Source: Kaiparowitsia implicata GSE-PSE-MK54-09C (lineage in GTDB: Bacteria; Cyanobacteriota; Cyanobacteriia; Elainellales; Elainellaceae). Taken from it: a stretch of 48,162 bases of DNA. The position numbers were made by a program, and so were the translations under genes. Shown here piece by piece: positions 14,264-47,905 of the stretch; position 1 is the first letter of the stretch, and each line of letters begins with the position of its first letter. The stretch lies in contig JAHHHI010000004.1 in NCBI GenBank assembly GCA_019359435.1, forward strand, positions 1-48,162, written 5' to 3'. The notes under the pieces were generated by a model that was given only the letters and a program-made list of their open reading frames with translations, did no database searches and was not told the origin of the DNA.

Positions 14264-15868
14264 ATGAGCCTTTCAGAAATCTGCGTCCAACAGCATGAGC
14301 ACGAGCAGAAAAAGCTGAAAAGACTCCTGCTTTGGGGACTTGTGGGGTCCCTGGGTGCCCACGGGATAGCGCTTAGCCTCAGCCAGTTCAACGTTTGGCA
14401 AGCAGCCACCGATGAGGTATCGCCCATTGAGCTGATTGTTACTGACTCCCCAACCGAGCCACTGCCCGACGATTTAGAGGTCTTGCCCGACCCAGCCCAG
14501 CCCGCCGAACTCAGTACCCAAACCAACGACCCAGCAGCGGCGACAGCCAGTGCCCCACCGCGCGCGGCGGTAGTAGCTCCGCCTGCGCCAGTGGCACCTC
14601 CAGTAGAGCCGATCGCCCCAGACAGTCCAGAACCGCTGGAGAACACCCAGGCAGAATCAGCCTTAGAAGAACCCCAGCCCAATGTCGAGGAAGAGGCTCC
14701 CACCAGCGAAGCCGAAGCCGCCGAGGTAGCTGAAGACCTCCCAGACGATGTCGAAGAAGATGTCGAGCCGGAAGCCGTAGCCACTGAACCCACTGAGTCT
14801 CAGTTCGAGCGGCTGCGCAACCTGCAGCAGCAGCTACGCGAGTCCCGGGCCGACAGGGGCACCAGCACTACCGCCGCGCCCACCGAGTCCGCTACCGCTG
14901 GCGCTGGCACCGTCCCCAATGCGCCTGCGGGCGATCGCCCTGGGGTCGCGGCGGCCCCCTCAACCACCAACGGCAGCGGTCAGGGCCAAGGGTCGCGCAC
15001 CGTAGCTTGTCAAAACTGCGTGCGCCCCAGTTATCCCCGGAGCGCCCTTGATGCCGGGGCCGAGGGGCAACCCATGGTGAGCGTTGATATCAACCCTGAC
15101 GGCAGCGTGCGCAGTGTTACCCTCACTCGCTCCAGCGGCAATGCAGAAATCGACCAGGCCGCTATCCAAGCTGCTAGAAACTCCCGCTTTCAACCCGTCA
15201 CGGGTGGTGCCAGCGTGCCCATCGAGTATGATCTGACCATCGAAGGGTCGCGCCGCAACCGCGATGCCCGCCGCCGAGGTGAGCGCCAAACCGTGGATGT
15301 ACCTCCTGAGCCAACCCCTGCAACCGAGACAGCGGATACTCCCCCCGCTGCGGACACCTTTCCAAACCCTGACCCCTCAGAGGATGGTGCAGAGGATGCC
15401 CCCGCAACGCCATCTGCTGCTTCAGATGCCTCTGAGATAGAGCCCTCTGAGACAGAGGCATCTGGGTCAGAGCCTTCCGAAACAGAGTCCTCTGAATCAG
15501 AGCCTTCCGAAACAGAGTCCTCTGAATCAGAGCCAGAGCCTGCGACCGCGACAGAATCTGCCCCGACACCCCCAATAGCACCGAGCCAAAACGACCCAGT
15601 GCCAGCGCCGGAACCAACTCCTTCCCCGGTTAATCAGACGCCAACTCCGGCTGCACCGCCTCCATCTGCGCCTCCGGCCACCGTGAGTCCGCCAATTCCA
15701 GCGGCTCCCCGGCCAACTCCAGCGGCTCCTCCTCCAGCGCCACTGGCTCCCCGGCCAATTCCAGCGGCTCCCCGGCCAACTCCAGCGGCTCCTCCACCAG
15801 CGCCACTAGATCTCCTACCAACTCCACCAGCTCCAGCGGCTCCTCCATCAACTGAGTCAGGAGAATGA
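14264..15868 (+). CDS. tonB: TonB energy transducer with a long C-terminal low-complexity extension
   Basis: The 534-residue protein has a cytoplasmic start, one membrane anchor near LLWGLVGSLGAHGIALSL (about 25-42), a Pro/Glu/Ala-rich periplasmic spacer, and a TonB C-terminal domain at roughly 250-330 (RPSYPRSALDAGAEGQPMV, INPDGSVRSVTLTRSSGN, AARNSRFQPV). Unusually, the fold is followed by about 200 residues of disorder: Ser/Glu repeats (SETESSESEP) then PAAPPPAP repeats. Most TonB proteins end with the domain. ATG 14264 is preferred over the upstream in-frame TTG at 14243. It would span the periplasm and pull on the TonB box of the receptor, powered by ExbB-ExbD encoded divergently. Confidence 0.88.
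   Translation: MSLSEICVQQHEHEQKKLKRLLLWGLVGSLGAHGIALSLSQFNVWQAATDEVSPIELIVTDSPTEPLPDDLEVLPDPAQPAELSTQTNDPAAATASAPPRAAVVAPPAPVAPPVEPIAPDSPEPLENTQAESALEEPQPNVEEEAPTSEAEAAEVAEDLPDDVEEDVEPEAVATEPTESQFERLRNLQQQLRESRADRGTSTTAAPTESATAGAGTVPNAPAGDRPGVAAAPSTTNGSGQGQGSRTVACQNCVRPSYPRSALDAGAEGQPMVSVDINPDGSVRSVTLTRSSGNAEIDQAAIQAARNSRFQPVTGGASVPIEYDLTIEGSRRNRDARRRGERQTVDVPPEPTPATETADTPPAADTFPNPDPSEDGAEDAPATPSAASDASEIEPSETEASGSEPSETESSESEPSETESSESEPEPATATESAPTPPIAPSQNDPVPAPEPTPSPVNQTPTPAAPPPSAPPATVSPPIPAAPRPTPAAPPPAPLAPRPIPAAPRPTPAAPPPAPLDLLPTPPAPAAPPSTESGE
15460..15850 (+). repeat. tandem repeats inside the tonB 3' end
   Basis: Two in-frame arrays are visible. Near 15465-15540 a 30-base unit encoding SESEPSETES repeats about twice, and at about 15690-15830 units encoding PAAPRPTPAAPPPAPLAPR repeat nearly exactly. 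Such arrays can change length by slippage without breaking the frame. Confidence 0.75.
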
Positions 15869-27792: not shown

Positions 27793-28206
27793 AGGGTCAA
27801 GAGAATGACGAGTGACAATCGCTAGGCTGATATAGCGCTAGCCACGTTAATTGGGACAGTTTAATTTGATGAACCTATCACTTTGCCTAGGTTCTATCCA
27901 ATCGCTCCGACTCTACTGCTGTAACAATTGCTGTGGATATCAATCAGGATTTGACTTGGATTTTAGAGGTAGACATCAATAGTGCAACTGTTGAATTGAT
28001 TAAGATAAGCGTTTTTATGGAACCTTTACCGCACAAAAGGCTCACAAAAATAAAACACAAACCCGTACTTCATGCACCACAGCTCATGGGTTTGAAGCAT
28101 GGGTCATGGCTGTGCTCCGAATCTATGACGATAACCCCACTTCCGCACAGCAATTGTCAAACAAACACTAGCTAGTCATCCAAAATAATACGTAGTAGAT
28201 CGATTT

Positions 28207-28230
28207 TACAGGTATTTATAAATACCTGTA
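28207..28230. repeat. perfect 24-bp palindrome
   Basis: TACAGGTATTTA is followed directly by its reverse complement. It could be an operator or a hairpin; there is no gene immediately next to it. Confidence 0.6.
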
Positions 28231-28332
28231 CTCATAGTCTGCCGAAATATCTTTGGCGCGCTACTCTTCTACGAGAGATTGATAGATTCTTTAAGCGCGG
28301 ACTATCAGCCGTTGATGTCTGCTTGATAAATT

Positions 28333-28457
28333 AACGTCAGTTCGGGTTAAGAGGGTTTTGGGGCATCGCGCGTCGCGCGATGCCCCAAAACCCTTAATGT
28401 GCCGTGCGCGTCGCGCACGGCACATTAAGGGTTTGAGCTTATCCCGAACTCAGGTTG
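28333..28457 (+). mobile_element. family-1 element, copy 1 (125 bp, 4-bp target duplication AATT)
   Basis: The element is bounded by AATT at 28329-28332 and 28458-28461. Its ends are imperfect inverted repeats sharing AGTTCGGG and TAAG. Inside are two perfect 20-bp hairpins with one-base loops, the first built on GGGTTTTGGGGCATCGCGCG, the second on CCCTTAATGTGCCGTGCGCG, sharing a CCC. Folded, it would be a three-way junction. It is identical over all 125 bases to copy 2 at 34943, in the opposite orientation. It has no coding capacity, so it must be mobilised in trans if active. The flanking duplications and exact copy show recent transposition. Confidence 0.88.
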
Positions 28458-28614
28458 AATTATCTAGGGATAGAGAAAATTCCATGTTTTTTGTATTAAA
28501 AAATACAATTCTGTATTACTTGCTCTATCGTGATTGCAGCAGTTGAGCTATTTAGGTACAGGTGTTGCGGAATACTCGTACTGCAAGGGTTCTGCATGAG
28601 CATAAATCTTAAGC

Positions 28615-28728
28615 ACCGTCAGTTCGGCAAATTTCTAAAACCGTGCTGCCCGTAAGGCGGGCAACAGAATTTTGCGTTGTTTTAGTCTCGCAGCAGGAAG
28701 CTGAAACAACGCTATCGAACTCACCTTC
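28615..28728 (+). mobile_element. family-1 element, divergent member (114 bp, target duplication AAGC)
   Basis: AAGC flanks it at 28611-28614 and 28729-28732. The left end shares CGTCAGTTCGG and the right end CGAACTCA with copy 1, but the interior sequence is different. It still forms two hairpins: one around TGCCCGTAAGGCGGGCA and one in which GCGTTGTTTTAG pairs with CTGAAACAACGC. Conserved architecture with changed arm sequence suggests that structure, not sequence, matters. Confidence 0.75.
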
Positions 28729-29005
28729 AAGCCGCACTTCAAAGCGACGGTGTCACTCCCTCATGCAGTTAGTTTAATTGGTTTGGTATGCTCGATCCAT
28801 CCACTGCCAAACCGTCTTTGTCTTGGGTGTCCTGACGATCGAGATAACGGGATGCCGTCTGCCACTGAGGCTTTGTGCCTATGATACACATAGCGCAAGG
28901 GGCTTAGGCTCAAACCTTTAGGTTGGATTTTGACAGGCTACTGATTGCGGCAAATTGCGGCAATTAGAGTGAAGCCGCTTTGAGTAGACAGTCAGAGCGT
29001 GCCAC

Positions 29006-30172
29006 TTATCGTGCAGACAGAAGGGGGGCCGGGGCAACGCGTTCCATAATTTGTTGCACCACAGTAGCCGTCCAATCAATGTCTGCACCAGTAGTGTGCC
29101 GCCCTAAGGTAAAGCGAATACCGCTGCGGGCTTGGCGATCGCTCAACCCCATTGCCAGCAGAGTAGGACTAGGCACCAGTTTGCCACTGTTGCAGGCAGA
29201 CCCGGCGCTAATACCAATTCCCGCTAAGTTGAGGTGCCGCACGATGGTTCTGCCGTTGAGGCGATCGCCATCTCCGTGACGCAGATAAAAACTCGCATGG
29301 TGCGGCAACCGATGGGTGCGATCGCCCGTCGGCACCAAATCAGGAATCGCTGCCAACTGATGAAACAACTGATCACGTAACTGGGTCAGGCGCAACTGCT
29401 CTATCTGTAGCTCTGCCACTGCAAATTCTGCTGCCGTGCCGAAGCCTGCAATCGCAGGCATGGCCTGGGTGCCCGAGCGCAAACGAAATTCCTGCCCGCC
29501 ACCTCGCATCTGCGGTTCTAGCAACACCCCAGGGCGAACATACAGAGCCCCGGCTCCTGGCGGGCCGTAAAGCTTATGACTAGACAGCGAAAGTAAATCT
29601 ACGGGCAATTGCTGTACATCAATGGGGCAGCGGCCCGCGACCTGCACCGCATCGGTATGAAACAGCACGCCGTGGCGACGGGCGATCGCCCCCAGCGCAT
29701 CAATAGGCTGGAGCGTTCCTACCTCACTCTGCCCGTAGATCACAGAAATCAGCGCCGTGTTGGGTTGGAGCGATCGCTCCAGTTCTGCTGGGTCAACTCG
29801 CCCCTGCCCATCCACAAGAAGCCGCGTTACTGCCCAACCCTGACACTCGAGCCAGCGGACGGGGGCATCAATAGCGGAATGCTCAACGCTAGAAATCACA
29901 AGATGTTGAGGAGACGCATACCGTTGAGTTACGCCAAGAATGGCAAGATTATCGGCCTCGGTGCCCCCCGTTGTGAATACTATCGTTTCAGGCGCGGCAT
30001 TAATCAGTGCGGCCACCTGTGCCCGTGCCCGTTCTAACACGAGTGCCGCCCGTTCTCCCCACTGATGCAGGCTTGATGGATTACCCCACAACTCGGTCAT
30101 GACTTGGTGCATAGAGGCGATCGCCTCTTCCCGAGGTGGCGTAGTCGCGCTGTAGTCAAGATAGATTTGCAT
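29006..30172 (-). CDS. cysteine desulfurase, NifS/IscS family
   Basis: The 388-residue PLP enzyme takes sulfur from cysteine for Fe-S cluster and other sulfur transfer. The N-terminus YLDYSATTPP, the histidine region SSVEHSAIDAPV, HTDAVQVAGR, the PLP lysine in SLSSHKLYGPPG and the active cysteine loop GSACNSG are all present. It has the length of the group I (NifS/IscS) class, not the SufS class. It stands alone, leftward, 450 bases from the fur stop, with no other cluster-assembly genes. Which of the several cyanobacterial paralogues it is cannot be told from sequence alone. Confidence 0.93.
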   Translation of the reverse strand: MQIYLDYSATTPPREEAIASMHQVMTELWGNPSSLHQWGERAALVLERARAQVAALINAAPETIVFTTGGTEADNLAILGVTQRYASPQHLVISSVEHSAIDAPVRWLECQGWAVTRLLVDGQGRVDPAELERSLQPNTALISVIYGQSEVGTLQPIDALGAIARRHGVLFHTDAVQVAGRCPIDVQQLPVDLLSLSSHKLYGPPGAGALYVRPGVLLEPQMRGGGQEFRLRSGTQAMPAIAGFGTAAEFAVAELQIEQLRLTQLRDQLFHQLAAIPDLVPTGDRTHRLPHHASFYLRHGDGDRLNGRTIVRHLNLAGIGISAGSACNSGKLVPSPTLLAMGLSDRQARSGIRFTLGRHTTGADIDWTATVVQQIMERVAPAPLLSAR

Positions 30173-30620
30173 AGTGACGTTGCTAGTTCAGCAGGGCTCC
30201 GGTAGGGCTTCGGTCAACAGAAATACGCTTCTCTTTTAGGATAGGCCGTTGTGTTTCGCTTAGGGGACAGTCTAACGGCGCATTGCTTATCCCCAGAGTT
30301 TATGCAGCCTCAACGATCGTGTTGATCTCTCCCCGGCACAATTCCCTCAACACCCAGCATCGTGGACGAAGACGCTGGACGCTGGGCATTAGCCCTGATG
30401 CTGCCTCAGCTATCGGGTTCACGCGTTAGGGACTGATGAGGCCCCAGCAGAGTAAGAATTTCACAGATTCCCCGATTCACTGGGTTAGCGTTGCATCCGC
30501 GACAACGAGGGCGGCAAGAATAAATCAAAGCCCTGAGTTTCCATTAGCGATGGGTAACTCAGGGCTCTCTAGGAAATGGATTGTATCTGGCTCATTATTC
30601 GCGTTGTCACAGTAGAGCGT
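30173..30620. other. fur to cysteine desulfurase intergenic region
   Basis: This gap of about 450 bases holds the fur terminator hairpin at 30529-30566 and some GC-rich dyads (for example near 30355-30395, CAGCATCGTGG...GACGCTGGACGCTGG). The desulfurase promoter should lie near its left end. No small gene is supported. Confidence 0.45.
30529..30566 (-). terminator. hairpin downstream of fur
   Basis: AGCCCTGAGTT pairs perfectly with AACTCAGGGCT, with a small inner CCAT/ATGG stem in the loop. It begins 55 bases after the fur stop on the transcribed strand. The symmetric structure could terminate transcription from the right. Confidence 0.55.
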
Positions 30621-31076
30621 TTAAAGGGGGATGAGCGATCGCTGACAGGTTGGGCAAACGGCATGAATGATAAGTTGGCAATCGAGTAAATGATAGCCTT
30701 CTTTTTGGGCCGTTTTAGTCCCCGTTTTAAGAATGCCGTCATTCTTAAACTCAATGGTTTTGTTGCATTTAACGCAAATTAGATGGTGGTGATGATAGGG
30801 CGCAGGCTGATTAATTTCATAGTGCTTGTGCCCCTCTGCCAACTCCAATTCTCGTAAGATACCCATGCGTGCCATGAGTTTGAGGGTGCGATAAATTGTC
30901 GAAAGGCTGATGGGGTGACCATCTTCCTCCAACGTGTTGTACAGATCCTCAGCGCTCAGGTGCGTGCCCTTGGGCAAATTTTGAAAAATCTCCAGGATGA
31001 TTTCTCGCTGAGGTGTCAGACGCCATCCCTTTTCATTTAGCTCGGCCTTGAGCGAGGCAGCGGTGTAGATTGTCAT
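30621..31076 (-). CDS. fur: ferric uptake regulator FurA
   Basis: The 151-residue protein is close to cyanobacterial FurA: MTIYTAASLKAELNEKGWRL at the start, DNA-binding helix ISLSTIYRTLKLMARMGIL, the metal-binding stretch YHHHHLICVKC, and CPTC near the end. With Fe(II) it represses iron-uptake genes; in cyanobacteria FurA also binds haem and controls many other genes. I start at ATG 31076 (MTIYTAAS); the frame opens 31 codons earlier, but those residues do not match the family. A strong Fur box lies 13-31 bases upstream, so it should repress itself. Its likely targets include the uptake genes in the first 16 kb. Confidence 0.96.
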   Translation of the reverse strand: MTIYTAASLKAELNEKGWRLTPQREIILEIFQNLPKGTHLSAEDLYNTLEEDGHPISLSTIYRTLKLMARMGILRELELAEGHKHYEINQPAPYHHHHLICVKCNKTIEFKNDGILKTGTKTAQKEGYHLLDCQLIIHAVCPTCQRSLIPL

Positions 31077-31088
31077 AACCGACCTTCT

Positions 31089-31107
31089 CAATAATGCATC
31101 ATTATTG
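31089..31107. promoter_or_regulatory. Fur box in the fur promoter
   Basis: CAATAATG and CATTATTG form a perfect 8-bp dyad around a 3-base centre, a 19-bp site very like the classical Fur consensus with inward ATAATG/CATTAT halves. It is 13-31 bases upstream of the fur start codon, so binding would block transcription or translation initiation there. This supports autoregulation. Confidence 0.75.
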
Positions 31108-31149
31108 AAAATAATACCGAATTCCTGGATTACTTGCAAGAAGACCAAC

Positions 31150-31163
31150 TTATTGAGAATAAT
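31150..31163. promoter_or_regulatory. second Fur-like site upstream of fur
   Basis: TTATTGAGAATAAT repeats the motif TTATTGAAAATAAT found at 31102-31115, which partly overlaps the main Fur box. Two spaced copies fit cooperative binding of FurA to its own promoter. Sequence match only. Confidence 0.5.
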
Positions 31164-31500
31164 CAGCAATAGGTGGCTATAAATGAATGCCCTATACTTA
31201 ATAGTGTAGATAATTTAATAAGTCTATGGTTTGCTGTGTCTACAACAGGTTCTTTTAAGGCAAAACGCAAGCAGCTAAGATTTCGATTTACGATCGGCCT
31301 GCTTATAGAAAAGCCTTGTCAATTTGAACGCAATTTGCAAAGAATTTTATTGAAATAACAAGACTTAATTAATAAAACAATCGCCGTATGTGCGTGTTTT
31401 GTTAAAAGATAAAATTCCTTGCATGATGCATGATTCATGCAACTAAATAGAACCTAACGTTGAGACGACAGTTCCATAGCGTTCGTCACGATCTAGCAGT

Positions 31501-31517
31501 GTTCCAATGTTTGGAAC
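31501..31517. promoter_or_regulatory. inverted repeat between fur and tocopherol cyclase genes
   Basis: GTTCCAA and TTGGAAC flank a 3-base centre as a perfect dyad, about 60 bases past the stop of the cyclase gene. It may be a short terminator stem or an operator; no T tract was seen. Confidence 0.35.
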
Positions 31518-31577
31518 CTATACTTCACAGGTGTTTCACCCATTTTCTTTGACTTTGCACTATGAGGCTTTGCACAT

Positions 31578-32717
31578 CTATCGAGCCTTTGCCTTGCTTA
31601 GGGTGCTGAAGTCAGGCTGGCTGGCTGGGCTATAGTTTGCTGTGGCCCAGGGGGTAGTCCAGGACTTGCCGCCCACTTCTAATGCGGCTAAATTACTGTG
31701 CGCCGTAAGGATGGGAGGTTGGGACGAATTGGTCTGAATATCCCATAATTGCAAGGTCAAATTTCCGTTGGCCGTATCGCGGCAGTTGAATTTCATTCCC
31801 GCTTGGCCGGGCACACGCACTTGAGCGGGCGATCGCTCACACCATCCGGTCAGCGCAACGTTGTAACGGTCAGTCTCTGCACCAATCCACCAGCGGCCCC
31901 AAGGGTGAACAGCCCAAGAGATTTTGGCAGTCCACGGGGTAAATTCGTAAAACCGTCCTTGATAGTGAAGCCCGATCATTCCCACGGTTTCTTGCCAGGT
32001 GAAAATACGGCGATAGCTGCCGACGGCTGTCAGCGTCAATGCAGGCTGATCTATAAAGCTATTACATTGCATCCAAAACCACTGCTCTGGAAACGCACCG
32101 CCCCAGTTTTTCTCTGCGTATACAGGCGCATCCGTAAATTCGTACCGCTGCCCGTGCCACTCGATCCACCCTGTTGCCACCCCGTGGGCCATCAAGACTT
32201 GCCAGCCCGGTTCAAATAGCTGAAACCGTGAAAACCAGCCCGCTGTGGACTGCTGCGGCCGTGTAGGAGTGCCCCATCCATACACGGGTCGCAGGCGATA
32301 GCACCAGCGCGTCCATCGACCAGAGGCCGGGTCATAGAGCTGCCCTTGGTGCTGAGTCGCAGTCAACTGGTAACCTTCGGCAACAGTGGTGGCAAACCTC
32401 TGCGGGGCTAGCCATACGGGGCGTAGCGAATCAACGGGCGATCGCCAGTGCCCCACCCCAACGCAGTCGTGCCAGGCCCAAAACCCTGCCGTATTCGGGA
32501 ACGTGCGACACACATACGTGTCATCTGGCCCCAAAATTTGAGCGCAGCCACCGCTAGCGCGGGTGCCACCCGCCGGATTTTGGATGGAATACATGAAGGC
32601 GAAAGACTGTGCCAAATCAGGCAACGTCAGCCGGGTGTACCACCCTTCAAAAAAGGGGCGATCGCTCCCATCCCAGTGATAACCACTGTGGGGCGTTTGT
32701 AACGCCATAATGCTCAT
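31578..32717 (-). CDS. tocopherol cyclase (VTE1-like)
   Basis: The 379-residue protein matches the tocopherol cyclase family, which closes the chromanol ring in vitamin E synthesis: HSGYHWDGSDRPFFEGWYTR at the start, FAFMYSIQNPAGG, the core YAEKNWGGAFPEQWFWMQC, and many conserved Trp residues. Vitamin E protects membranes against lipid peroxidation. The alternative ATG three codons later is equally possible. It is leftward and not obviously in an operon; the large upstream gap probably carries its promoter. Confidence 0.92.
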   Translation of the reverse strand: MSIMALQTPHSGYHWDGSDRPFFEGWYTRLTLPDLAQSFAFMYSIQNPAGGTRASGGCAQILGPDDTYVCRTFPNTAGFWAWHDCVGVGHWRSPVDSLRPVWLAPQRFATTVAEGYQLTATQHQGQLYDPASGRWTRWCYRLRPVYGWGTPTRPQQSTAGWFSRFQLFEPGWQVLMAHGVATGWIEWHGQRYEFTDAPVYAEKNWGGAFPEQWFWMQCNSFIDQPALTLTAVGSYRRIFTWQETVGMIGLHYQGRFYEFTPWTAKISWAVHPWGRWWIGAETDRYNVALTGWCERSPAQVRVPGQAGMKFNCRDTANGNLTLQLWDIQTNSSQPPILTAHSNLAALEVGGKSWTTPWATANYSPASQPDFSTLSKAKAR

Positions 32718-33538
32718 CCAACCTGAATAGACACAACGCAGTCACACGCATAGGTCTTGACACTATAGCAACTGCCATTGCCCCAAAGCCAATACAGAAG
32801 CCTGCAATCCATTTAGCGGCCTGTCACGATCCGTAAATTTAACTAAAAATACGCTTTCGGGCTTCACTGAATCTTTAAGCCCTGATTTTTTAGCCTAAAG
32901 ATTGTTTGAAGGGAATGCTGTAAAGCGAGGGAAGCCTCATCCCAGCGCTATGCTCTACAGGTACGGATTCAGATCTCGGAATAGGCTCAGCTACGGCAGT
33001 TTGACAGATCTTATCTTCTTTACACCTGCACGCTTGCTGAAGCCGTTCAGGCCTGCTTAGGGCTGCCAGGGGGGGGTGCCACTGTTGAGGCACTGCTGAT
33101 TGACCCCGTCCGTAATACCCGCAGGGAGAACTGTTTATAGAAGAACCGCGACCGGGTTGCCGTCCCGAACTGGGCTAAGTCTTAAATAAGACTAATGCAG
33201 CAGCATAAAGAGCCTAAACGTGAGATTGGGGTGGCCCCCACCGACAATTATCTCATTGACTGTCTGCCGTTGGAGGTAAGACTTAGGCGGCTACAGATAA
33301 ATGCTCTTGTCCAGTGCTAGGTTTACCTTGTGGGGCGTCTATGCACCAAGAGGGCGATACCCCGCAGTTACCCAAATCGGGATGAATCGACCAGAAAACG
33401 CTAGATTTGCACAACCTACTACACTGAGTATAAACACTTAGGAAACGTGCCCTCTGAGCGATCGCCCCATCTAAGCACTACCCCTTATGTGCTCCTTCCA
33501 GCCTCACCTGTCATAGCCCGCCCTCTTCATCTGCCACC
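32718..33538. other. 820-base gene-free region, possibly with a structured RNA
   Basis: Frames here lack coding character. The stretch about 33170-33390 holds paired segments (separate entry). The rest contains a G-run near 33068-33075 and no identifiable repeat. Promoters of the flanking divergent genes must lie in it. Confidence 0.5.
33170..33390 (+). ncRNA. candidate structured RNA or mRNA leader
   Basis: CTAAGTCTTA at 33175-33184 can pair over 10 bp with TAAGACTTAG at 33277-33286, or locally with TAAGACT at 33187-33193, so two mutually exclusive folds are possible. Inside the long-range stem, TGAGAT (33221-33226) pairs with ATCTCA (33250-33255) around a GGTGG/CCACC hairpin. Beyond it CTCTTG pairs with CAAGAG around 33303-33353. 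No known RNA family signature was recognised. It is about 150 bases upstream of the glycosyltransferase gene, so a leader is possible. Strand is inferred from that neighbour. Confidence 0.3.
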
Positions 33539-34822
33539 ATGCGAATTTTGCTTTACTCTTACAACTACTGCCCAGAGCCCATCGGCATCGCTCCGCTGAT
33601 GACTGAACTGGCAGAAGGCCTGGTGCGTCGGGGGCATGAAGTGCGCGTCATCACCGGAATGCCCAACTACCCACAGCGCAAGATTTACAAAGGCTATCGC
33701 GGCAAGCTTTACCACATCGAAGAAGAAAACGGAGTGACGGTACAACGCTGCTACATCTGGATTCGGCCCAAACCAGGGCTGCTTGCCCGCATGATTTTAG
33801 ATGGTAGCTTTGTGCTGACCAGCTTTGTCCAAGCCCTCAACGGCTGGCGGCCAGATGTGATTCTGTATACCATTCCACCGTTGCCCGTCTGCGTGCCTGC
33901 GGTATTGCTAGGCTGGCTATACTCTTGCCCTGTCGTTGTGAACCTGCAAGACATACTGCCAGAGGCCGCTATCCATGTAGGCCTGCTCAAAAACGACTTG
34001 GCGATTCGAATCTTCAAGCAGCTAGAGCGCTTTGCCTACCGCTCAGCGTCTGCAATCTCAGTGATTACAGACGGATTTATCGAAAACTTACTCCGTAAGC
34101 GCGTACCGGCTAAAAAAATTACCTGCATTCCCAATTGGGTTGACATAGACTTTGTGCACCCCATGCCCAAAGCAGGCAACCCATTTCGAGAACGTAATGG
34201 ATTAGACGATAAATTTGTAGTTCTGTATTCTGGCAACATTGCCCTGACCCAAGGGTTAGAGACCGTGATTGACGCGGCCCAACAGTTGCAAGACATTCCT
34301 GACTTAGTATTTGTGGTCGTTGGGGAAGAGAAGGCGCGCAAACGACTGGAAGCATACTGTGAAGATCAGGGTGTGCACAACGTGCAGATGTTCGACTTTC
34401 AGCCAAGGGAAATGTTGCCTGAGCTGCTTGCAGCAGCTGACGTCAGCCTAGTGGTGCAAAAGCGCAACGTCGTTTCATTCAACATGCCCTCCAAACTACA
34501 GCTGCTGTTGGCTAGCGGTCGCCCCATCGTGGCATCGGTGCCGCTAAACGGCATGGCCGCCCGTGCACTGGGGCAAAGTGGCGGGGGGATGGTGGTGCAG
34601 GCCGAGAGATCTGAGCTACTAGCAGATGGCATTCGACGGCTCTACAACGAACCCGCTTTGGCAATAGAACTGGGTCAGCAGGGGCGTCAGTATGCCGCTC
34701 GTTACTATGCAAAAGAGCAAGCTTTAGATGCCTACGAATTGCTCTTTTCTCGCTTGGTGAAGAAAGTAGCAAAGCCTGTGGTGCTTGCACCTGTGCCAGA
34801 AGAAGTGCCGACTCATCGGTAA
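33539..34822 (+). CDS. WcaI-like glycosyltransferase, GT4 family
   Basis: The 427-residue enzyme has the GT-B layout: MRILLYSYNYCPEPIGIAPL at the start, LVRRGHEVRVITGMPNYPQ, a central hinge, and the nucleotide-sugar half with FVVLYSGNIALTQGLETVI and a C-terminal segment with NMPSKLQLLLASGRPIVAS. This matches WcaI-like glycosyltransferases that build extracellular polysaccharide. The sugar donor and acceptor are unknown. ATG at 33539 fits the family start. No other polysaccharide genes adjoin it. Confidence 0.9.
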   Translation: MRILLYSYNYCPEPIGIAPLMTELAEGLVRRGHEVRVITGMPNYPQRKIYKGYRGKLYHIEEENGVTVQRCYIWIRPKPGLLARMILDGSFVLTSFVQALNGWRPDVILYTIPPLPVCVPAVLLGWLYSCPVVVNLQDILPEAAIHVGLLKNDLAIRIFKQLERFAYRSASAISVITDGFIENLLRKRVPAKKITCIPNWVDIDFVHPMPKAGNPFRERNGLDDKFVVLYSGNIALTQGLETVIDAAQQLQDIPDLVFVVVGEEKARKRLEAYCEDQGVHNVQMFDFQPREMLPELLAAADVSLVVQKRNVVSFNMPSKLQLLLASGRPIVASVPLNGMAARALGQSGGGMVVQAERSELLADGIRRLYNEPALAIELGQQGRQYAARYYAKEQALDAYELLFSRLVKKVAKPVVLAPVPEEVPTHR

Positions 34823-34942
34823 GCGATGGCGCATGCCGCTTTAGCAGGGGATAGTCTAGGCTGGCCTAGAGTGATGGATCTTAGTACAATTCACACTCTA
34901 TAAAGACGGTTTGTGTAGAGATATAAAAGGCTCAGCCTACTG

Positions 34943-35067
34943 CAACCTGAGTTCGGGATAAGCTCAAACCCTTAATGTGCCGTGCGCGACGCGCACGGCA
35001 CATTAAGGGTTTTGGGGCATCGCGCGACGCGCGATGCCCCAAAACCCTCTTAACCCGAACTGACGTT
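34943..35067 (-). mobile_element. family-1 element, copy 2 (125 bp, target duplication ACTG)
   Basis: ACTG flanks it at 34939-34942 and 35068-35071. It is the exact reverse complement of copy 1 across all 125 bases, while the flanks differ. Together with copy 1 it brackets 6.5 kb carrying the desulfurase, fur, cyclase and glycosyltransferase genes in inverted orientation. Confidence 0.88.
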
Positions 35068-35281
35068 ACTGCACACTTTTCTTAAGGTCTATCCTTGTGT
35101 GGCTTTAGCTCACGCTAGTCCGCAGGCGAGGCCATTGGAAGAAGAGCATATCTAACCCCGCCGATCCCTTGCCTATTTGAGCTTACTTTTATTCTGAAAT
35201 GCGCGTGCAGAGGGCGCTTCCCCAAAAGCCTGGAGTTGCCATTTTAAGAACGGATACCAGGGTTGGGCCAACTGGGTAGAG

Positions 35282-35336
35282 TTTAGTCATGATGCGGTGT
35301 GGAGCGGTTGCCACCCCACACCGCATCATGACTAAA
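35282..35336. terminator. long perfect hairpin, 21-bp stem
   Basis: TTTAGTCATGATGCGGTGTGG pairs exactly with its complement around a 13-base loop (35303-35315). It lies about 30 bases beyond the stop of the rhodanese relic on the minus strand and about 460 bases after the glycosyltransferase stop. It could be a bidirectional terminator or another palindromic repeat; a short T run flanks neither side. Confidence 0.45.
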
Positions 35337-35364
35337 TAAGGACGACCAGAGAACTAACTGAGTC

Positions 35365-35570
35365 CTACCAATACTGGATCGGTAAGCGACCATTTGGGCC
35401 GCGGAAGGTGTTGTCTGCAACGTGAACCGCACCCGGAACATGTCCCGTAATGTAGTCTAGTGGGTTGATACGAACATCCACACGCGCAAGTTAGAATCAT
35501 CTGCGTGTTCGACCGGCCAAGCTGGCGAGATGAATCTTTTGGTCTCTTCTACAGATCTGTTCATGTTCAT
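35365..35570 (-). pseudogene. truncated, frameshifted rhodanese (thiosulfate sulfurtransferase) remnant
   Basis: Starting at ATG 35570 the frame reads a rhodanese N-terminus, with TKRFISPAWPVEHADDSNLRV. About one base is missing near 35470-35490; the next frame continues with DVRINPLDYITGHVPGAVHV and NTFRGPNGRLPIQYW to a TAG at 35365-35367. This is the order expected in sulfurtransferases (SPxWLxxH, DVR, GHxPGA). About 69 codons remain out of the usual 270-300, so both a frameshift and loss of the catalytic part have occurred. It is not an intact gene in any single frame. Confidence 0.75.
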
Positions 35571-35627
35571 GTCTATCTCAACGGTTGGCAGTCTCCTCGG
35601 TGCACCCGTGGTTTGAAGATTGGGACT

Positions 35628-36110
35628 TTAGTGCAGCGTCAAGCTTAATTGTTTGCGAGTGATTTGGGCATCACGGCTGAGTGGGGATAGACTCTCCGAC
35701 TGGCGTATCAGTTTCCAAACGTCATACATGATTGGGTCAATGGCGACAGGGTTAGACAAATAGGCATTGATCATCACAGGCAGTTCTTGACTCGCACTTG
35801 TGTCCGCACAAGTTGAGGTGACTAGAAGAGACATCCGGTTACCGGTCGTTTGTTTAGGGTGGCTGATCTGCTGAATCAATGGCTCAATGCTTTCAGTTGA
35901 GCACCCCATCTTGCAAAGTATTAGGGCAGGCTTATACAAATCTAGGATTCTAACAGCATCTTGAATCGAGCTGACTGTCGTTATATTTGCGCCGCATTTC
36001 TCAAGGGGCAACGTATACAACTCTCTGCTGTCGCGATCGCTATTGACCATTAGAACTTGTATATCGATGAGATTCATGAGATCCATTGGCCGTTCTTGGA
36101 CTGTGGTCAT
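35628..36110 (-). CDS. degenerate receiver-domain protein
   Basis: The 160-residue product, started at ATG 36110 because a GAGGTGA Shine-Dalgarno precedes it, folds like a response-regulator receiver: IDIQVLMVNSDRDSRELYTL, a middle strand PALILCKMG, and INAYLSNPVAIDPIMYDVW. The phospho-acceptor Asp is replaced (the strand reads LCKMG, with Lys67) and the conserved Lys of YLSKP is Asn120. It therefore cannot be phosphorylated in the usual way and may be a protein-interaction module. It follows the small Cys4 gene by 53 bases in the same direction; the two are probably cotranscribed. Confidence 0.75.
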   Translation of the reverse strand: MTTVQERPMDLMNLIDIQVLMVNSDRDSRELYTLPLEKCGANITTVSSIQDAVRILDLYKPALILCKMGCSTESIEPLIQQISHPKQTTGNRMSLLVTSTCADTSASQELPVMINAYLSNPVAIDPIMYDVWKLIRQSESLSPLSRDAQITRKQLSLTLH

Positions 36111-36163
36111 AGTGTCACCTCGATAATGTGAGAAGGTCGGGATGAAAGAATGCACAATTGAAC

Positions 36164-36358
36164 TTATGTAATGAACGGTTCACATCGTTCTATAGCTGGC
36201 ATGTTTTGATAGCAATGGGGACAACGCCAGTAAAGTCGGTTCATATGAACATGACGGAGTAAATGAGTTGAGCAACATGGACACTGATATCTGCTCTGCA
36301 TAGCCGTAGGGTTGAGGTAGCGGCATTCAGCAGCATTCACAATTAATCTCTTGATCAT
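36164..36358 (-). CDS. small Cys4 zinc-ribbon protein
   Basis: This 64-residue frame has two CxxC knuckles, CPCC and CPHC, separated by about 20 residues including HMNRLYWR, a typical zinc-ribbon spacing. A second in-frame Met is at residue 20. The function is unknown, but such ribbons bind nucleic acid or protein partners. It is upstream of, and codirectional with, the degenerate receiver. The Cys pattern and its operon-like position make a real gene likely. Confidence 0.65.
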   Translation of the reverse strand: MIKRLIVNAAECRYLNPTAMQSRYQCPCCSTHLLRHVHMNRLYWRCPHCYQNMPAIERCEPFIT

Positions 36359-36590
36359 GCTCGTCAGCAGGGAGTCCTAAGGAGGTCGGGATATCTGATT
36401 CTCAATAATGAGTCACTATTGTAGCGATTGATTGCCAGGTATCTTCGCAGAGGGTCTAGTCTCAACTGATGCACTTGTCCCATAACGATGACAGAGCGGT
36501 GTTTGATTTCGGGGTTGAATTGATTAAGTTAAATACGATGAGCGAAAAATATTTACTAATAATTTAAATTTACGTACCAAATTGATGCAT

Positions 36591-36715
36591 TAATCGGAGT
36601 TTGGGATAGGCTTAAAGCCTCAATGCCCCATGCGCATCGCTTACGGCTCCTTAAAATTTGGGGCACTGCACCGCCGCGCGTTGCCCTAAAAGCCGTCCTT
36701 CTCCAAACTTGAGTT
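36591..36715 (-). mobile_element. family-1 element, decayed copy 3 (125 bp, target duplication GCAT)
   Basis: GCAT flanks it at 36587-36590 and 36716-36719. It has exactly the same length as copies 1 and 2, and aligns without large gaps (shared blocks include GAGTT-GGGATA and TTGGGGCA), but many bases differ. One arm still pairs; the other has decayed. This is an older insertion of the same family in the orientation of copy 2. Confidence 0.75.
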
Positions 36716-36770
36716 GCATTAAATTCAACCATTGCCCGAGAACTGCTGGTAAGGGGGCGATCGCTCATCG

Positions 36771-36951
36771 AGGCGTCCCAGTTTTGTAGATGTCATTCTG
36801 TTCGCTTTAGCGGCTCTGAAAGAGCAACGTAGCGATAGCGAAGTGAAGAATCCCGATCTTGCGCAAAGCCTGAGATCCTTTGCTATACTCCGTTCCGTTG
36901 CTCCTCCGGAGCCGTTTCACGAACAGAAAGATAAAAGCGGGATGCACCCTC
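36771..36951 (+). mobile_element. family-2 palindromic element, copy A (about 180 bp, 8-10-bp target duplication)
   Basis: TCGCTCATCG occurs at 36761-36770 and again at 36950-36959, so a duplication of 8-10 bases flanks the element. The ends are inverted repeats containing CCCAGTTTTG and TGTCATTCTGTTCG. The middle includes GAAGAATCCCGATCT and GAGATCCTTTGC, which can pair. It is about 90 percent identical to copy B at 47668 by eye. The TGTCATTCTG...GAGATCC pattern resembles widespread bacterial repeats known from many genomes. Confidence 0.75.
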
Positions 36952-36995
36952 GCTCATCGGCATCACATCGCCAGGGGTTTAGCAGCTATACCGAC

Positions 36996-39314
36996 TCACT
37001 CGCCCTGCCATTCCCGGTCTTCTAATTCTTTCTGCGGCAGCAACAGCGTTGTTTCAATCTCTTGTCGAATAGTCGCTGTAATTTCACAATTGCTATTCAA
37101 GCAATCGATCAAGAGCTGATTTGCATCATAGTAGCGTTGCAGAACTTGCTCTTGCTCAGGGCTGAACTGCCAGGAGTGATTGATCTTTCGATAATCGGTG
37201 ATGGTGTCTCTCAACCGCTCTATCCAGGCAGAATAATGGGTCTGCGACCAGAGGTCAAGCCGTTCTTGGTTTTGATTGGGTGGTGGCAATTGATCTCTCA
37301 ATTGTTGGAGAGACTTATAGAACCCAGCATCTAAAATCATCACCATCATATTGTTGAGTGCCTCGCTACAGGCATTCGCATGGGCAAAATCCTGACTGGT
37401 TTCAACGGCGCAGCTCAGCAGCAAATGGTCTAACGCCGCATCCAAAAACATCCCCTGATCTAGCATGGTCGCTAGTGCAAAGTGGGTCACTGTGTGCGGA
37501 GTTTTGGCCATAGCGAGGTAAAAGGCCCGCGAGGTGGCGACTTTAGGTGGGGATTGAAGCGCTTGTGATTTTTTGCTGGCCCATACCAAAAACTCTTGTA
37601 GATAGGGGTCTTTGGCCACCATTGCATCGATCTGCTGTTTCATCAGTTGCATTAGCGAATCGGCACTGCGCAACATGGCTGTTGTTAACAAAAACACTTC
37701 GCGCCAGTAGGGATCGGTAATGTGGCCGACCAGCCCACTTAGCGCTTGCTCTAAGGCTCGCAAATTATGGCTGGCTACAATGTTTCGAGCCGTAAAATAT
37801 TCATGAAAGGCCAAGTAAGAAAACGAAAAAATTCCTCGCGCTCGTTCGGTGAGCAACCCATGCTGCGCCGCGATTGCATTGAGCATGGCCGCGCTTTCAA
37901 GCTGCAGTTCTTCTGGTTTTAACGCCACACCCGGCAAGGTCTGCAAATAGTCTCCAATATATTGCTCAATCGTGCGTTGCTCAAAGAAGTATTGTCCTTT
38001 CTCAAAGGTAACTGCCGCTACCTGACTGAGCAATTTCAGTTTTTGAGGCACCAAAAAGTTTCGATAGGCGGTGTCACGTTCAACGCCTTTTGCTTCATCC
38101 CATTGGCCGAGCAGCAGATCAAGCCCATGTTTATAGAAGTCGCTGCGCTTAGCCGGAAACCTCCCTGCGCCAGAAAACACCCAGCAGGCCAGATGCAGAA
38201 ACAACGGCGTCACGGCCAATCGTCGGAACTGCCAGTTCTCTGGCAAATCTAACTTCTGGATAAATTCAGCAGATTGCTCTTGCCCCGCTTGAACCGTGGT
38301 TTGAGTCAGTGCCACAAACCACTTTTGAGCAAAGGTGTTAATTTGAGCTTGCGTAAAAGGAGCAATCTCAACATCGGTGAAGCCTCGGAGTTGCAGCTTG
38401 TAGGCCGCAGTTCGGCACGACACCACAAATCGGTTCTTGTGATATTTTTCTGAAAACTTGCGGATCTCTCTTAAAACGGCAGAGATGTTTTGGTTGAGCA
38501 CTTCATCCATGCCATCTAGCAATAGCAAGACACGACCTGCTTTGAGCAGAGTTTCAGATACACTGGGGTCTTTGACCCCAGAAACAAGCAACGTTTGACG
38601 AATGTAGCTTAAGAGGCTAAATTTTCCGCTCTCCTCAGACTCTTTGGAAAAATCCCCTAGGGAAATAAAGATTGGAACCTGATGGCTGGCGAACTGACCT
38701 CGATTACACTGAATCGCTAAATTTTGTAAGAAGGTTGTTTTGCCAACGCCCGTTTTCCCTAAAACTCTAAGTTTTGAATTTTGCTCCACCACTTGCATTC
38801 CTGGAACTTGCTTCTGGGCTATATCTCCCAATCCCACGTGGTCAAACTCAGTCGGCTTTAGGGTTTGCATTGAAGAGAGATCAAACCACCGCTGACTCGC
38901 AATTTCTTCCAGAATGTTGACATCCACATAGATGTCGTCGAGGTTGACCGGACGGCTAATGTCTAAGAGCTGTAAGATTCCACACTGGTTTTGAACAGTG
39001 TCGTAGCGTTGCGATCGCACCTGCGCCACGAGTTCATCTATATCCAACGCGATACTATCTGCCACCTGTCCGGGTTCAGAAAAGGAATCAGGCGGATTCT
39101 CTGCGATGTCTCGCCAGACCAGATCAAGAATCAAACACAGGTCGATAAACACCTGTCGATCCACCGGTTGCCCAGTAAAAAAGCGCCAGACGGGCTGACG
39201 AGTTTTGAGGTTGGCCTCGGCAGCTAAATTTTCTTGCGTCCATCCTTTGAGGGCAAACGCTCGCTTAGCTTGTTGAATCCCAGATGGAGACGCATAGAGC
39301 GATCGCTTGGACAT
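36996..39314 (-). CDS. HTH-NACHT ATPase
   Basis: The 772-residue protein has an N-terminal helix-turn-helix-like region (about 14-70, KGWTQENLAAEANLKTRQPV), a linker, a NACHT ATPase domain with Walker A GKTGVGKTT (186-194) and Walker B LLLLDGMDEV (263-272), and a helical C-terminal region without visible repeats. NACHT ATPases are STAND proteins; some bacterial members are phage-defence sensors, others regulators, so defence is inference. The effector part is unusual in being a DNA-binding-like domain rather than a nuclease. It stands alone between a family-2 element and an IS630 remnant, suggesting a mobile accessory locus. Confidence 0.85.
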   Translation of the reverse strand: MSKRSLYASPSGIQQAKRAFALKGWTQENLAAEANLKTRQPVWRFFTGQPVDRQVFIDLCLILDLVWRDIAENPPDSFSEPGQVADSIALDIDELVAQVRSQRYDTVQNQCGILQLLDISRPVNLDDIYVDVNILEEIASQRWFDLSSMQTLKPTEFDHVGLGDIAQKQVPGMQVVEQNSKLRVLGKTGVGKTTFLQNLAIQCNRGQFASHQVPIFISLGDFSKESEESGKFSLLSYIRQTLLVSGVKDPSVSETLLKAGRVLLLLDGMDEVLNQNISAVLREIRKFSEKYHKNRFVVSCRTAAYKLQLRGFTDVEIAPFTQAQINTFAQKWFVALTQTTVQAGQEQSAEFIQKLDLPENWQFRRLAVTPLFLHLACWVFSGAGRFPAKRSDFYKHGLDLLLGQWDEAKGVERDTAYRNFLVPQKLKLLSQVAAVTFEKGQYFFEQRTIEQYIGDYLQTLPGVALKPEELQLESAAMLNAIAAQHGLLTERARGIFSFSYLAFHEYFTARNIVASHNLRALEQALSGLVGHITDPYWREVFLLTTAMLRSADSLMQLMKQQIDAMVAKDPYLQEFLVWASKKSQALQSPPKVATSRAFYLAMAKTPHTVTHFALATMLDQGMFLDAALDHLLLSCAVETSQDFAHANACSEALNNMMVMILDAGFYKSLQQLRDQLPPPNQNQERLDLWSQTHYSAWIERLRDTITDYRKINHSWQFSPEQEQVLQRYYDANQLLIDCLNSNCEITATIRQEIETTLLLPQKELEDREWQGE

Positions 39315-47667: not shown

Positions 47668-47849
47668 GAGTGCATCCCAGTTTTGCAAATGTCATTCTGT
47701 TCGCTTTAGCGGCTCTGAAAGAGCAACGTAGCGATCGCGAAGTGAAGAATCCCGATCTCGCGCAAGGACTGAGATCCTTCGCAACACTCCGTTCCGTTGC
47801 TCCTCCGGAGCCGTTTCACGAACAGGATGACAAAAGTGGAATGCACCCA
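47668..47849 (+). mobile_element. family-2 palindromic element, copy B (182 bp, 8-bp target duplication)
   Basis: ATAGCCTC flanks it at 47660-47667 and 47850-47857. Its ends, containing TGCATCCCAGTTTTG and CAAAAGTGGAATGCA, are inverted repeats; a second pair is TCATTCTGTTCG and CGAACAGGATGA. It lies in the same orientation as copy A at 36771, more than 10 kb away. No coding capacity. Confidence 0.8.
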
Positions 47850-47905
47850 ATAGCCTCTGCCTCTCACCGATAACTTGACGTTGTTCCAATAGTGCAGCCG
47901 GATTG

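Follow-up and report, generated by a model that had tools for sequence, protein, structure and literature searches.

The locus considered here raises the question of how a set of very short, hairpin-rich repeats is moved, and how its hairpins have remained perfect while their sequences changed. It lies in a stretch of 48,162 nucleotides from Kaiparowitsia implicata GSE-PSE-MK54-09C (contig JAHHHI010000004.1, positions 1 to 48,162), which is called the window throughout and corresponds to contig C4 of the host assembly, a 6.7-Mb draft of 109 contigs. Four repeated elements were recognized in the window, three of which are 122 bp long and belong to one family. With a probability of roughly 0.85, we interpret them as miniature inverted-repeat transposable elements (MITEs) of the IS982 family, which would have been moved by an IS982 transposase acting in trans and the hairpins of which would be rewritten by strand switching.

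The MITE consists of 122 bp with two hairpins and has no transposase gene. It shares its ends with a 979-bp IS982 element of the host genome, the terminal bases matching at 18/18 and 17/18 positions. The reading frame of the latter element matches the NCBIfam family NF033520 (IS982 transposase) at 1.3e-43, scoring 149 bits where the cut-off is 130. It also matches the Pfam domain DDE_Tnp_1_3 at 4e-59. Altogether, the search of the host genome for this transposase family gave 11 matches, including four above the cut-off, and pieces of IS982 are also found at contig edges of the assembly. The initial annotation of this DNA had placed the mobilizing transposase outside the window, which agrees with the finding of its likely family, IS982, elsewhere in the genome. 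It had also suggested looking for a transposase frame with the same ends and a 4-bp duplication; an element with these ends exists in the form of IS982, but no such duplication was seen around it. Judged from the shared ends, IS982 is the likely parent of the MITE, and a DDE transposase of the IS982 type, acting in trans, would have bound these ends and moved it. Only the terminal 18 bp are seen in common, and the interior hairpins of the MITE were not found in the IS982 element.

Complete copies with the exact ends ACGTC...CAGGT occur 70 times in the host genome, versus zero for a reversed-pattern control; end matches with no more than one mismatch number 338, versus 11 for the control. At this boundary, 56 of the 70 copies are flanked by exact duplications of 6 bp (n = 31), 7 bp (n = 22), 8 bp (n = 2) or 9 bp (n = 1), whereas the remaining 14 copies include ten duplications with one mismatch and four copies with none. 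The chance level obtained from re-paired flanks is 0.84 exact and 5.4 one-mismatch duplications per 70 copies. Most target sites follow a T-A...T-A pattern. Among the 31 sites of 6 bp, T is first in 29, A is second in 25 and A is last in all 31. Placed where they agree best with IS982, the boundaries leave duplications that vary in length between 6 and 9 bp. The 4-bp target duplication described initially proved to be a part of these longer repeats, and the element sizes, given as 125 bp for three copies and 114 bp for the fourth, are corrected to 122 bp and 112 bp; the value of 125 bp arose because three bases of the duplication had been counted as element. The exclusion of IS630, which has a 2-bp TA target, still stands.

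With these boundaries, the elements of the window and their parts are the following.

28334..28455, plus strand: MITE copy 1, 122 bp, ACGTC...CAGGT
28327..28333: target duplication on the left of copy 1, TAAATTA, differing at one position from its right counterpart
28456..28462: target duplication on the right of copy 1, TGAATTA
28334..28351, plus strand: left terminal 18 bp of copy 1, same as one end of the IS982 element of the genome
28438..28455, minus strand: right terminal 18 bp of copy 1, 17/18 to the other IS982 end
28352..28394, plus strand: hairpin 1 of copy 1, 43 nt, with a one-base centre that is A or T in 70/70 copies
28388..28434, plus strand: hairpin 2 of copy 1, 47 nt, with AAACCCT common to hairpin 1
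28615..28726, plus strand: fourth element, of an older diverged subfamily with similar ends, 112 bp by the chosen boundaries, flanked by TTAAGC and TCAAGC (5/6 matching)
34945..35066, minus strand: MITE copy 2, 122 bp, sequence identical to copy 1
34938..34944 and 35067..35073: target duplications of copy 2, TACTGCA, exact
36593..36714, minus strand: MITE copy 3, 122 bp, an old degenerate member of the family of copies 1 and 2
36586..36592 and 36715..36721: target duplications of copy 3, TGCATTA, exact 7 bp

Copies 1 and 2 have opposite orientations, and the identity noted initially is complete across their 122 bp. All four elements have inverted ends of the AGTTCGG type, as first described, with AGTTTGG in old copy 3. 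Their assignment to a single family was revised, the fourth element representing an older subfamily that was found at 39 other places with 72-91% identity (among the best 40 of 155 candidates scored; two extra matches are the opposite strand of places already counted). A 198-bp repeat adjoins copy 3, with two copies at 36773-36970 and 47672-47869 that are 87% identical. Other repeats of the window include tandem repeats of 15 bp and 21 bp at 15423-15837 and a long inverted repeat at 35282-35336, by eye unrelated to the MITE.

The 70 complete host copies comprise 43 distinct sequences, and 27 of them repeat the exact sequence of another copy, consistent with the original description of a MITE with many near-identical copies. 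A covariance model of the family gave 148 matches in the host genome (among the best 150 of 3609 candidates). These correspond to 127 places by hand count, after removal of 21 matches to the opposite strand of a place already counted; the copies from which the model was built match by construction, and old copy 3 is one of its rows. MITE sites are mainly intergenic. Of the 70 sites, 53 have flanks of 190 bp and are exactly duplicated over 5 bp or more; four of these 53 lie within an open frame of 100 codons or longer, as compared to 69.6% of 2000 random window sites. One MITE lies inside an apparent gene (L021), and neither side of it gave a Pfam match at E 1. Five short derivatives have kept the MITE ends without both hairpins, four of them 46 bp (L130, L131, L132 and L134) and one 48 bp (L133). 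The four 46-bp derivatives retain a single AGGGTTT, the product expected from a deletion between AGGGTTT repeats. Exact 6-bp duplications flank three of the five, namely two of 46 bp and the one of 48 bp.

Two other genera of the same taxonomic family (genomes G003 and G013) contain multicopy 122-bp elements of the same plan, with identities of 75-77% and 86-90%, respectively, in the best listed matches. The duplications around these elements include TACGTA, TAAAATA, TGTCCTA and TAGCCTA; three of the copies (L119, L120 and L124) have one decayed end and lack a duplication. When 12 candidates were scored per genome, the covariance model matched 33 of 291 genomes of the class. Scores above 100 bits were limited to the host, G003 and G013, and the other matching genomes scored at most 48.7 bits. 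The 60 genomes of a further search included no second genome of the host genus.

The cloverleaf, or three-way junction, predicted initially is well supported for copy 1, which folds far better than shuffled sequences (z of -12.8 as DNA and -11.0 as RNA). This 122-bp cloverleaf with two perfect hairpins is kept in three genera through paired changes. We aligned 50 sequences, including 40 from the host, the old copy of the window, five from G003 and four from G013; the indel copies L093, L101 and L107 among the 43 distinct host sequences were left out. In this alignment, 98.1% of cells pair, and two-sided changes occur in 23 of 49 pairs, versus a mean of 8.6 for shuffled and 4-7 for slid pairings. 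Changes were also counted after the 43 distinct host sequences had been connected in a minimum spanning tree, along the edges of which hairpin pairs show 18 two-sided and 22 one-sided changes. These counts supersede a looser one (25 two-sided and 33 one-sided) that included gap and overlapping pairs. A null of independent substitutions gives a mean of 0.18 two-sided changes, with a maximum of 2 in 1000. On four edges, the two changed bases make up a single two-sided hairpin pair. In three copies (L025, L078 and L085), each of the two arms has gained a base, and in one lineage (5/70 copies) three related AGGGTTT/AAACCCT segments changed together. Hairpin 1 has an unpaired centre that is A in 52 and T in 18 of the 70 copies; it changes between A and T on all eight edges where it changes, as opposed to 4 A/T changes out of 69 elsewhere. 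We infer that template switching within the hairpins rewrites their arms and inverts the hairpins. The replicating arms would template each other, by which the arms may be corrected and the whole hairpin turned around.

Several results weigh against the reading of an IS982-moved and strand-switched MITE, and they are considered here together with its rivals. The transposase gene is disrupted in all five host IS982 copies that were long enough for intactness to be judged (on C1, C35, C97, C7 and C90). Because these assembled copies are disrupted, a functional IS982 copy would have been lost, would be unassembled or would have come from elsewhere. The copies at C1:383-1361 and C35:19239-20217 have three base differences, and the shortened copy at C97:12001-12836 has 11 differences from C1 over 836 common bases, with the same stops there; such near-identical copies with several stops make it appear that a dead element was itself copied in trans. 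On C7, a 250-aa DDE part remains open with the frame broken upstream, while the C90 copy has its transposase split between frames. The flanks of single host copies (C1, C35, C7 and C90) showed no duplication when compared. The left flank of one host copy equals the right flank of another for the 7-mers TTGATTA and TAATCTT, which may point to recombination, exchange or mis-joining between IS copies; when the C10 left and C1 right flanks are joined, a frame stays open for about 10 codons beyond the junction. A transposase above the IS982 family cut-off is absent from G003 and G013 (best 23.7 and 26.5 bits). Moreover, among 18 full-length IS982-type copies with placed ends, from the host and other genomes including Pseudanabaena, Tildeniella and some Chloroflexota, 16 have neither an exact nor a one-mismatch duplication, and these include intact copies of G026 and G035. 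The two exact duplications, which favor the IS982 reading, are TAGCTA in G021 and, in a Pseudanabaena copy whose ends read AGTTCGGG, TAATTGA. Also in its favor, open frames of 300-311 aa together with ACGT[CG]AGTTCGGG ends were found in G026 (twice), G035 and a Pseudanabaena, and the relative in G021 has an open frame above 300 aa and AGTACGG ends. A count by eye gave A as the last base of the left flank and T as the first base of the right flank in 15 of the 18 placed copies each, as at MITE sites. Full-length IS982 copies, among them L019, L020, L050, L052, L159, L205 and L209, mostly lack a MITE-like duplication. The boundary itself can be questioned in favor of a mobilizing transposase with 4-bp duplications, as proposed initially. 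When two bases of the right flank are moved into the element (shift 0,2), repeats of 4 bp or more are left in 62 of the 70 copies (4 bp, n = 35; 5 bp, n = 23; 6 bp, n = 3; 7 bp, n = 1), and a shift of one base on each side (1,1) leaves them in 59 (n = 33, 22, 3 and 1 for the same lengths), that is, in as many copies or more. However, the length varies at each boundary shift compared over the 70 copies, and a constant 4-bp duplication was rejected. The moved flank bases are not fixed, and exact 6-7 bp repeats persist where left flanks end with G or C (L063 and L077) and where right flanks begin with G (L090 and L093). In addition, the ACGTC...CAGGT ends conform to the 5'-AC rule known for IS982, and an IS982 is what carries these ends in the genome. 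We consider a 4-bp family very improbable. Equally little credit can be given to a REPIN- or IS200/IS605-like element moved as a single strand by a Y1/RAYT transposase, even though such elements are small, palindromic and intergenic, with compensatory changes like those reported for REPINs in the available text of PMC3116915. The clear target duplications and DDE-family ends of the MITE contradict this origin. REPINs are not known to have a target duplication, and single-strand HUH elements are not known to make one.

The hairpin-2 loop turned into its own reverse complement on three of ten edges (one deletion edge was left out), and this, like the 22 one-sided pair changes, speaks against strand switching; as hairpin-2 loops are mostly not reverse-complemented and one-sided changes are present, rewriting is not the sole process. 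The same one-sided changes favor a rival in which a folded structure, of RNA or DNA, is under selection and one-sided mutations are compensated later; the very strong covariation and the fold retained in three genera also favor it. We regard this selection as a serious but less likely alternative, given the four edges on which two changed bases form a single two-sided pair, the bases added to both arms in three copies and the A/T-limited change at an unpaired centre, which has no pairing benefit; Rfam also gave no family match within window positions 28000-37000. In the favored reading, folding may in addition help the transposase by bringing the ends of so short a DNA close to each other. A bolder proposal takes the cargo as a self-repairing palindrome, with strand-switch rewriting and inversion as its main mode of evolution and the fold as a built-in synapsis device for the DDE transposase; the cloverleaf would be required, since an unfolded duplex of 122 bp, being short and stiff, could not join its ends. 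This proposal is speculative, and we consider it rather doubtful.

An abundant bacterial repeat is now tied to a named transposase family, with its target duplication corrected. The 70 complete copies provide a natural record of palindrome mutation, in which one genome is enough to count paired changes, insertions in both arms and inversions of hairpins, and the role of folding in very short DNA transposons becomes testable. Nezha is a cyanobacterial MITE. For Anabaena 90, the genome report found that the MITEs do not resemble the IS ends of that genome (PMC3542288), and the word IS982 is absent from the accessible portion of a MITE review (PMC10969869). In searches limited to the open-licence literature, none of the papers listed, among them PMC9769881, PMC9208149 and PMC9330008, has a title or abstract opening that describes this element or its mode of evolution.

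As outlined in the available sections of PMC7335449, IS982 family members are about 1 kb long and have conserved 5'-AC ends, while the length of their direct repeats varies; for instance, ISNsp1 of Nostoc has 1028 bp and a 6-bp repeat, and several IS982 entries have a repeat length of 0. The MITE resembles this family in its 5'-AC ends, variable direct repeats and matched transposase family, but differs in being geneless and in the restriction of the visible similarity to the terminal 18 bp. Pseudomonas REPINs are likewise hairpin-forming and intergenic with common compensatory changes, although they depend on a RAYT transposase and have other ends, according to the excerpts of PMC3116915. A close counterpart by description, rather than by sequence, is MITECca01 of a Cardinium endosymbiont, a published IS982-derived MITE (PMC9769881, in its available part). 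It is also small, multicopy and devoid of a transposase, with ends very similar to those of an IS982-family element in its own genome; in contrast to the MITE described here, it is about 240 bp long and its genome holds intact parental copies. Since IS982-derived MITEs have already been published, this kind of element is known, and the present family is a further member. The less expected part is the paired hairpin evolution of the cargo, which makes it unusually informative: folded cargo and paired evolution characterize the MITE of K. implicata, whereas neither appears in the available account of MITECca01 (PMC9769881).

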